Shown: one piece after another, positions 48,318-50,562 of the stretch
Position numbering within the stretch: the first letter of the stretch is position 1
How the letters are laid out: each line of letters opens with the position of its first letter
From: Pseudomonadota bacterium
GTDB lineage: Bacteria > Pseudomonadota > Alphaproteobacteria > Rhodobacterales > Rhodobacteraceae
Direction of reading: 5' to 3'
Length of the DNA: 64,000 nucleotides
NCBI GenBank assembly: GCA_021845805.1
Contig: JAJZVD010000005.1
Coordinates: 1-64,000 of the forward strand
Notes under the pieces: model-generated
The model's input: the letters and a program-made list of their open reading frames with translations, nothing else
The model's database searches: none
What the model was told of the DNA's origin: nothing
Made by a program: the position numbers and the translations under genes

Positions 48318-48363
48318 GAATGATGCATTCCGATTGTCAACGAGTATATGGAATATATTATTC
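48318..48363. promoter_or_regulatory. two candidate MurR/RpiR operators upstream of murQ
   Basis: GAATGATGCATTC (48318-48330) and GAATATATTATTC (48351-48363) share the pattern GAATR-N3-YATTC. Their starts are 33 bp apart, about three helical turns. They lie 59-104 nt upstream of the murQ start. A third box of this type is at 50550, next to the RpiR-type regulator gene, which supports regulation by that protein. Confidence 0.65.
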
Positions 48364-49235
48364 TACTCCAGCCCCGCCTCGCGCCGGGCATGGATGATCG
48401 CGCCGGTGACCGCGTCGCCTTCGGCGGGCCGCAGGGTGCGGCGCACGTCGGGCGAAAGCCAGGGCTCGATGGCGCTGGACAGACCGCCCAGCAGCGCCAC
48501 CCGCGGCGCGCCCTGCGCCAGAAGCGCGCGCACCAGCGTGTCGATCTGCTCTGCCGCCCCCTGCACGATGCTGCGCGCCGCGGCATCGCCCTGGTCGGCG
48601 TGGCGCAGCACAAGGGGCGCGAGCGTCGCGTAATCCGACGCGGTGGCGCGGTCCATCCAGGCCACCACCTCGAACGGGTCGGCGTGAAAGCGGGCCATCA
48701 CCTCGGTCAGCAGGGCCGACCCGGCGTGACGGCCGTCCTGCGCGCGCAGCGCGAGTTGCATCGCCCTCAGCCCCAGATCGGCGCCGCTGCCCTCGTCCGA
48801 CACCGGAAAGCCGTAGCCCCCCACGCGCAACGCGCGTTCGCCCACCTGGCCCAGGCCGATCGAGCCGGTGCCCGCGATGACGATGGCGCCATCGCGCCCG
48901 GAATGGGCGCCAAGGCAGGCGGCGTGGCCATCGCTGGTGAAGGCGGCAGCGGCATAGGGATGCGGCAGGGCCTCCAGCGCGGCGCGGGCGCCCTTGCGCC
49001 CGATCCCGGCCAGCGCGATGCCCGCGACCAGTGACGCGACCTGGGCGCCGGTCAGCCCCGCCTCGGCGATTGCCGCCTGCGCCGCGGTGGTGACGGCCGC
49101 CCAGGCGCCCTCGGCCCCCAGCCGCAGCGTGGCGGGCCCGGCCAGCCCCTGGCCCAGCACCCGGCCGTCGGCGGTCTCGACCCGGGCCCGACAGCCGGTG
49201 CCCCCGCCATCGACCCCCAGGAACAGCGGGTTCAT
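48363..49235 (-). CDS. BadF/BadG-family amino-sugar kinase (second copy, GlcNAc/MurNAc kinase-like)
   Basis: The product has 290 residues. Actin-like ATPase motifs: FLGVDGGGTGCRARV, IVIAGTGSIGLG and VSDEGSGADLG. The family includes NAGK and MurK, which phosphorylate GlcNAc and MurNAc. It is encoded directly behind murA (4-nt overlap) and before the murQ unit, so it would supply MurNAc-6-P or GlcNAc-6-P. It is a paralogue of the 35394 protein, with a different set of insertions. The stop codon touches one of the regulator boxes at 48351-48363. Confidence 0.88.
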   Translation of the reverse strand: MNPLFLGVDGGGTGCRARVETADGRVLGQGLAGPATLRLGAEGAWAAVTTAAQAAIAEAGLTGAQVASLVAGIALAGIGRKGARAALEALPHPYAAAAFTSDGHAACLGAHSGRDGAIVIAGTGSIGLGQVGERALRVGGYGFPVSDEGSGADLGLRAMQLALRAQDGRHAGSALLTEVMARFHADPFEVVAWMDRATASDYATLAPLVLRHADQGDAAARSIVQGAAEQIDTLVRALLAQGAPRVALLGGLSSAIEPWLSPDVRRTLRPAEGDAVTGAIIHARREAGLE

Positions 49236-50488
49236 GGCCCGATCCGTTCGATCCGCGCGCCGCAGCGGCGCAGCTTGACGTCCAACTGCTCATACCCCCG
49301 ATCGAGGTGGTAAAGCCGGTTGAGCACCGTCTCGCCTTCGGCCGCCAGCCCCGCCAGCACCAGGCAGACCGAGGCGCGCAGGTCGGTGGCCATGACCGGC
49401 GCGCCCTTCAGCCGCGTGGCGCCCCGCACCACCGCGGTGGTGCCCTGCAGGCGGATGTTGGCGCCCAGCCGCGACAGTTCCGGCACATGCATGAACCGGC
49501 TTTCGAAGATCGTTTCCCGGATCATCGCGGCGCCCTCGGCCTGGGTCATCAGTGCCATGAACTGCGCCTGAAGGTCGGTGGGAAAGCCGGGGTAGGGCTC
49601 GGTCGTGATGTCGGTCGCGCGCAGCGGCCCGCCGCCCGCCACGATCAGCCCGCGGTCGCCCGGCCAGACGCGGACGCCCGCGGCCTCCAGCGCCTGCACC
49701 ACGGCGGCCATGTGTTCCAGCCGGGCACCCGACAGCTCGATCTGGCCGCCGGTGATGGCTGCGGCGATGGCATAGGTGCCGGCCTCGATCCGGTCGGGGA
49801 TCAGGCGATGAGTGGCCGCACGCCAGACGGTGCCGCCGGAAATCAGGATGCGGTGGGTGCCCGCCCCCTCGATCCGGGCGCCCATCGCGGCGAGACAGGC
49901 GGCCAGGTCCACCACCTCGGGTTCGCGCGCGGCGTTCAGGATCTCGGTTTCCCCCCGCGCCGCGGTGGCGGCCATCATCGCGGTTTCCGTGGCCCCGACC
50001 GAGGGCGAGGGCAGCACCAGCCGGTTGCCGCGCAGGCCGCCCGAGGCGCGGGCGTGGATGAAGCCACCCTCGATCACGATGTCGGCGCCCAGCGCGGTCA
50101 GCGCCGCCACATGCATGTCCACCGGCCGCGCCCCGATGGCGCAGCCGCCGGGCAGCGACACCCGCGCCTGCCCGAACCGCGCCAGCAGCGGCGCCAGAAC
50201 AAGCACTGTGGCCCGCATCCGGCGCACCGTGTCATAGCCGGTGTCGGCGGGGCTGGCGGCAGCGGCGTCGATGGTGGCGGACCCCGCATCGCGGGTGATC
50301 GTGGCGCCGTGCTGCGCCATCAGCGCCAGCATGTTGGCCACGTCGGCCACCTCGGGCAGGTTCTGCAGGGTCAGCGAATGCGGGCTCAGCAGGCTGGCCG
50401 CGATCTGCGGCAGGGCCGCGTTCTTGGCCCCGGCAATGGCGACCGCCCCCCGCAGCGCATGGCCGCCCTCGATCCTCAGCCTGTCCAT
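49232..50488 (-). CDS. murA: UDP-N-acetylglucosamine 1-carboxyvinyltransferase
   Basis: The product has 418 residues from ATG 50486-50488, which aligns with the usual start (MDRLRIEGG). A second ATG 13 codons upstream is less likely. Active-site Cys116 lies in RVSLPGGCAIGARPVDMH; the Cys form is sensitive to fosfomycin. The enzyme adds enolpyruvate from PEP to UDP-GlcNAc, the first committed step of peptidoglycan synthesis. Finding it in a salvage operon behind a MurR-type regulator is unusual. It may be a second, recycling-linked murA, or the only copy placed here. A regulator box lies at 50550, 62 nt upstream. Confidence 0.93.
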   Translation of the reverse strand: MDRLRIEGGHALRGAVAIAGAKNAALPQIAASLLSPHSLTLQNLPEVADVANMLALMAQHGATITRDAGSATIDAAAASPADTGYDTVRRMRATVLVLAPLLARFGQARVSLPGGCAIGARPVDMHVAALTALGADIVIEGGFIHARASGGLRGNRLVLPSPSVGATETAMMAATAARGETEILNAAREPEVVDLAACLAAMGARIEGAGTHRILISGGTVWRAATHRLIPDRIEAGTYAIAAAITGGQIELSGARLEHMAAVVQALEAAGVRVWPGDRGLIVAGGGPLRATDITTEPYPGFPTDLQAQFMALMTQAEGAAMIRETIFESRFMHVPELSRLGANIRLQGTTAVVRGATRLKGAPVMATDLRASVCLVLAGLAAEGETVLNRLYHLDRGYEQLDVKLRRCGARIERIGP

Positions 50489-50549
50489 GATGCCCCGCTT
50501 TCCGTGGGCAAAGCCTTCATCGTGCATTCTCTGCTGTCAAGTCAGGGCG

Positions 50550-50562
50550 GAATAATTTATTC
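50550..50562. promoter_or_regulatory. candidate MurR/RpiR operator between murA and the regulator
   Basis: GAATAATTTATTC is a perfect palindrome around a central T and matches the GAATR-N3-YATTC boxes at 48318 and 48351. It lies 62 nt from the murA start and 37 nt from the regulator start, so both could be controlled. A degenerate half-site, CATTC at 50525-50529, sits exactly 33 bp from the right half of this box, the same spacing as the pair upstream of murQ. Confidence 0.65.

Follow-up and report, generated by a model that had tools for sequence, protein, structure and literature searches.

The locus raises the question of whether the short palindromes lying upstream of murQ, and between murA and a neighboring regulator gene, mark a MurR-like regulon, as the preliminary description had proposed, and what such a regulon would control. 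It is part of a stretch of 64,000 nucleotides from a member of the Rhodobacteraceae, which was analyzed as a whole and is referred to below as the window.

Paired palindromes in the amino-sugar cluster

The regulator gene (plus strand) is divergent from murA (minus strand), and its linkage to murQ, as expected for a MurR regulon, was observed here and also in relatives (Table 1). AnmK forms MurNAc-6-phosphate, and MurQ is the enzyme that uses it. The ABC importer may take up muropeptides, its substrate being putative; according to a published report, the Rhodobacterales are devoid of AmpG (PMC9790009). A second amino-sugar cluster (window positions 33075-39164) encodes its own MurQ-like protein, a NagK-like kinase, a GntR regulator, a NagB-II-like deaminase and NagA; none of the GAATR-N3-YATTC boxes occurs within it.

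Three copies of GAATR-N3-YATTC had been described in the window, and all of them were recovered as exact matches (Table 1). A scan of the whole assembly (3,395,876 bases in 109 contigs) returned these three sites and no others, the reversed control giving none, which bears out the earlier statement that the boxes are confined to this locus; the motif is not common away from cell-wall genes, as it would be were the regulon illusory. For the window, 0.09 boxes are expected, and at least three were reached in none of 100 shuffles. The start-to-start distance of 33 bp between the murQ boxes was confirmed, and the half-site suspected near 50525 at the same spacing proved to be a CATTC that keeps this register relative to 50550. 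Two 13-mers in this register span 46 bp, or 48 bp with one extra base on each side, compared with about 47 bp in all for the two adjacent sites expected of a MurR regulon (PMC12713135); they lie over predicted promoter elements.

The murQ boxes are situated in the 103-bp gap 3' of the kinase gene, which the box at 48351-48363 overlaps by one base (stop codon 48363-48365); hence murQ is served by a separate operator. In each operator, the interval separating the two sites contains a TTGACA on the murA/murQ strand, which places the full box (48351 for murQ, 50550 for murA) upstream of the putative -35 element and the other site just downstream of it. The -10 hexamers are weak, and their distance is not fixed. 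A scan of the assembly for the extended pattern YATTC-N20-GAATN5ATTC matched these two operators and no other place.

Table 1. Genes and predicted operator elements of the cluster (window coordinates).
Feature	Position	Strand	Evidence
anmK, anhydro-MurNAc kinase	40131..41246	-	NF007141 above cut-off; PF03702
Serine hydrolase, beta-lactamase Pfam family	41250..42236	-	PF00144
Peptide-type ABC importer: binding protein (45787-47304), two permeases, double ATPase	42233..47304	-	domain families; adjoins murQ in 10 of 11 plasmid loci
murQ, MurNAc-6-phosphate etherase	47339..48259	-	TIGR00274 above cut-off
Operator box 1 before murQ, GAATGATGCATTC	48318..48330		exact pattern match; downstream of the murQ-strand TTGACA
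TTGACA, putative -35 of murQ promoter	48335..48340	-	between the two murQ boxes
Operator box 2 before murQ, GAATATATTATTC	48351..48363		exact match; 33 bp from box 1
NagK-like BadF-type sugar kinase	48363..49235	-	NF046058, 262 bits (cut-off of 370 not reached); PF01869
murA paralogue, UDP-GlcNAc enolpyruvyltransferase, outside the housekeeping lineage	49232..50488	-	TIGR01072 above cut-off; tree
Degenerate box of murA operator, TCATCGTGCATTC	50517..50529		half-site CATTC at 50525-50529; 33 bp before 50550
TTGACA, putative -35 of murA promoter	50535..50540	-	between the murA operator sites
Full box of the murA operator, in the murA-regulator interval, GAATAATTTATTC	50550..50562		exact match
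RpiR/MurR-type regulator, 285 aa, HTH_6 and SIS	50599..51456	+	Pfam, NCBIfam; PDB 7en6/7en5 (E. coli MurR) top matches

The regulator and its predicted operators in other alphaproteobacteria

The regulator belongs to the RpiR family, as both PF01418 (HTH) and PF01380 (SIS) exceed the gathering scores. Against the MurR equivalog PRK15482 it reaches 166 bits (cut-off 408), and PRK11557 ranks higher (232 bits), also under its cut-off of 355; since the PRK15482 cut-off was missed, the protein is named MurR-type and not MurR. In one alignment its identity is 38% to YfhH, 35% to MurR and 24% to HexR (all from E. coli), BLAST against E. coli MurR gives 37% identity over 265 residues, and the closest solved structure is that of E. 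coli MurR. The recognition helix SQSS-VKF-Q is common to the regulators, MurR and YfhH (SQSG in the genome G047) and differs in HexR. The sensor motifs DxH[VI]Q and RSS[SA]-N3-R-x-AQ are present in all 19 aligned murQ-linked regulators and absent from YfhH and HexR, a signature that favors a MurR-like ligand; a Proteus regulator, with murQ linkage unchecked, has DHHVQ but RSAA. In the single-sequence structure model of the regulator (mean pLDDT 50.7), the sensor domain is unusable. The preliminary description was accurate in its observations and for the most part in its interpretation. Its designation "MurR-like" can be retained on the strength of the target genes, the operator and the sensor-domain signature, the overall identity being slightly nearer to YfhH. 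The boxes and their 32-33 bp register are found again beside related regulators from other genera and from a different taxonomic order, and more weakly at E. coli murR-murQ.

Of the seven genomes available for the genus, four contain the regulator, counting the present one; its relatives were detected in a Devosia-labelled MAG (73% identity) and in 16 Rhizobium/Allorhizobium plasmid records (56-65% identity), 11 of which were compared (H2, H3, H8, H9 and H11 were left out). It is rare otherwise, being found at E 1e-60 in 2 of 149 family genomes, this one counted, and at 1e-50, among the best candidates scored (up to six per genome), in this genome alone of 385 of the class. The RpiR gene, murA, the kinase gene and murQ follow in the same order in all 11 plasmid loci, joined by the importer in 10. 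These plasmid clusters share gene order and operators with the window cluster and differ from it by a 32-bp register at murQ and, on four Rhizobium-type plasmids, by a third operator, which precedes a transporter operon. This third operator, also full plus half at 32 bp, is located at 14777 in L082, 14834 in L083, 14790 in L084 and 14799 in L085; in L082 it precedes genes annotated as HAD-phosphatase and sugar ABC transporter.

The register was examined in 29 operators drawn from 15 loci, of which three belong to the window genus, one to the Devosia-labelled MAG and 11 to the plasmids. The operators represent about four lineages and are not independent; G535 was left out as a near-copy, and G047 was handled apart. 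A perfect GAATN5ATTC box by each gene was taken and the best partner position was then sought, so that the full boxes are perfect by choice and only the partner site is an independent result. In every operator, the partner keeps its ATTC half intact on the side of the full box; it lies at 32 bp in 15 and at 33 bp in 14. Counted at each offset within 120 bp on either side, YATTC occurs 15 times at -32 and 13 times at -33, and at most in 5 of the 29 operators at any other offset; the 29th operator has AATTC in its partner. A -35-like TTGAC stands between the sites in 24 operators and is missing from five. The partner is itself a perfect box in three operators, namely those of murQ in the window genus; the murA operators retain the near half alone. 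The half-site of G047, at 32 bp, is the outer half.

The single box is less specific in relatives, where it was also found outside the cluster (two of four boxes in G531, one of two in G532, one of four in G535). Three genus members with no detected regulator, one of them only 70% complete, contain six, one and three single boxes, and the reversed control gave up to two per genome. Of 13 genomes or records, 8 contain the composite in exact form with its 20-bp gap, and every hit coincides with an operator of murA or murQ or with the corresponding site beside the regulator gene. The five others are G047, owing to its outer-half half-site, and four plasmids with a 19-bp gap. Such a gap is also why the search missed the operators of murQ on the other three plasmids. 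With a 19-bp gap and at most two mismatches, the four Rhizobium-type plasmids (4.36 Mb) gave nine places, all in the cluster and including the third operators (the murA operators of three of the four need three mismatches); G047 gave no match with this pattern either. Among 394 family genomes, nine match the 20-bp-gap composite with at most one mismatch by pattern alone (reversed control, one genome), and only this genome and G531 match it exactly. The composite site (full box, 19-20 bp, half box) is also usable as a search rule.

The additional murA gene

In the phylogenetic tree, the MurA proteins of the clusters (12 rows) form one group apart from the housekeeping MurA (seven rows) with support of 100/99, and the window protein is 53-55% identical to the latter. 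All 12 cluster proteins possess PGGCAIGARPVD, which holds the cysteine attacked by fosfomycin. Both murA copies occur in G531 and G535; in this assembly, the cluster gene is the only murA above the cut-off in the genome search. The idea that it could be the sole murA, which would leave an essential gene with the repressor as its only control, was rejected as unproven, given that the close relative G535 has both copies and that contig C14 ends early, 216 bp short of the start of the G535 housekeeping murA and beside the same tRNA-Thr. On the hisD side, the 12.7 kb of contig C96 contain neither murA nor a DUF2948-type neighbor (a name taken from the Ruegeria annotation). The missing housekeeping gene is probably a gap of the assembly; it may alternatively have been deleted, and with a contig end this close to the expected gene we do not claim its loss.

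On a plasmid of Chelatococcus sp. CO-6 (L089), murA, detected as two tblastn pieces with no gene listed, lies within a cluster of murQ, nagA, SIS, GntR and peptide-importer genes, so in another setting, too, murA has joined a recycling cluster. The 491-kb megaplasmid of Ruegeria pomeroyi (L109) carries a housekeeping-type murA with DUF2948, plus glmS.

The first committed step in building the wall is that of MurA, the step blocked by fosfomycin. The MurQ route removes the lactyl group of recycled muramic acid, and wall building profits from it only if MurA restores the lactyl group. It seems to us an even call whether the cluster MurA is an isozyme of its own clade which travels with the recycling cluster in Rhodobacteraceae and Rhizobiaceae and stands directly under the recycling repressor, wall turnover then switching on extra first-step capacity. 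If true, control of a murA paralogue by the recycling repressor would tie both halves of the cycle together at the level of transcription. A literature search, with most subscription papers outside its reach, found no account of such an arrangement.

Proposed regulation, its alternatives and known systems

Judging from the sequences, we consider it rather probable that the locus is a MurR-type regulon for the reuse of cell-wall amino sugars, in which a tetrameric repressor would block the murQ and murA promoters until released by MurNAc-6-phosphate. We infer that the regulator, as a tetramer or as two dimers, would bind two sites that lie on one face of the DNA, about three turns from each other, and that in the bound state it would obstruct RNA polymerase at both promoters. 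The site on the upstream side of the putative -35 element is a full palindrome; the one immediately downstream is a second full box in the case of murQ and a half box in that of murA. Wall turnover would raise the level of MurNAc-6-phosphate, coming from AnmK and perhaps from the kinase, and this compound probably relieves the repression. MurQ and the importer could then degrade and take up the wall sugar, and the accessory MurA could rebuild UDP-MurNAc from the GlcNAc-6-phosphate made by MurQ. Recycling and new wall synthesis would probably be under joint control in this way.

With the same operator and repressor, the inducer could instead be GlcNAc-6-phosphate or another phosphorylated amino sugar, the regulon then sensing the general amino-sugar supply. 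The NagK-like kinase of the cluster, the nearby GntR cluster with NagA and NagB-II-like genes and the slightly closer relation of the protein to YfhH than to MurR are in line with this possibility; nevertheless, it appears unlikely, as the sensor signature tracks murQ linkage without exception and the maker and the user of MurNAc-6-phosphate are both encoded in the cluster. One might also assign the boxes to another regulator, such as the GntR protein at 36230, 12 kb away, for GntR proteins also bind short palindromes. However, no box occurs near the GntR gene of this genome, every alphaproteobacterial RpiR locus examined has a box beside the RpiR gene or murQ, and the Chelatococcus plasmid, which has murA, murQ and GntR and gave no RpiR hit, contains no perfect box in the 19 kb examined, all of which makes this assignment highly improbable. 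Chance palindromes in the AT-rich gaps of a GC-rich genome would accord with the single boxes elsewhere in relatives, but hardly with a register kept in all 29 operators and with all three genome sites lying here, and we give this explanation practically no weight.

A MurNAc-6-phosphate-released repressor also has to be weighed against an activator acting on a full-plus-half site. Such a role was proposed for Streptococcus pneumoniae NanR, which according to PMC12713135 would link a full palindrome to a degenerate half palindrome about 23 bp away, and the murA operators here are likewise full plus half. Yet the half-site here lies downstream of TTGAC, where a bound protein should block the polymerase, and E. 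coli MurR is described in the same text as a repressor with sites over the -35/-10 elements; activation is accordingly a doubtful, rather improbable alternative.

A MurR proper is expected to bind MurNAc-6-phosphate and thereby to lose affinity for DNA. According to PMC12713135, E. coli MurR is a tetramer in solution, proposed to bridge two adjacent sites (Jaeger and Mayer 2008, as cited in PMC12713135); its operator has sites 17 bp apart and 47 bp in total. Two 15-bp sites with 17 bp between them give a register of exactly 32 bp, which fits the two 7/8 boxes, GACTCAATGATTC and GGATATATGATTC, found 32 bp apart in the murR-murQ gap of E. coli K-12, a pair matched by 1 of 20,000 dinucleotide shuffles. 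GTCAA was considered as an operator part common to E. coli and the window and was rejected, being out of register in E. coli. The two systems have in common an RpiR-family gene beside murQ, sites of like type about 32 bp apart, the recognition helix and the sensor signature. They differ in that no murA or kinase gene lies beside murR within the 6 kb examined, whereas here murQ has its own operator inside the cluster, made of perfect boxes, the murA operator pairs a full box with a half-site, and the protein is 35-37% identical to MurR.

E. coli YfhH, annotated as "putative", shares the recognition helix and 38% identity with the regulator and has two perfect boxes 32 bp apart upstream; it differs by the absence of the DxH[VI]Q and RSS[SA] signature and of murQ within the 10 kb examined. 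We know of no report on a YfhH ligand. The K-12 pair of GAATN5ATTC boxes (L110, 4659-4703) is a predicted YfhH operator; the yfhH-type region of Klebsiella aerogenes has a box pair 33 bp apart, that of K. pneumoniae one full box and no scored pair. No box pair was found in the region of the Proteus regulator gene, and the composite site was absent from the E. coli HexR locus examined. In Photobacterium, the gap between murQ and the regulator gene contains a full box and, 32 bp from it, a half box; murQ of Salinivibrio has a full box with no partner at 32/33 bp.

S. pneumoniae NanR, as presented in PMC12713135, resembles the window regulator in its RpiR family, in the full plus degenerate half palindrome and in the proposed bridging by a tetramer. 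It differs in being an activator, in the distance of its half-site and in its ligand, ManNAc-6-phosphate. The architecture described here is already known from the operator of MurR in E. coli. Two features are additional, namely the conserved pairing of a full box with a half box and the presence of a murA paralogue, of a separate clade, in the predicted regulon.
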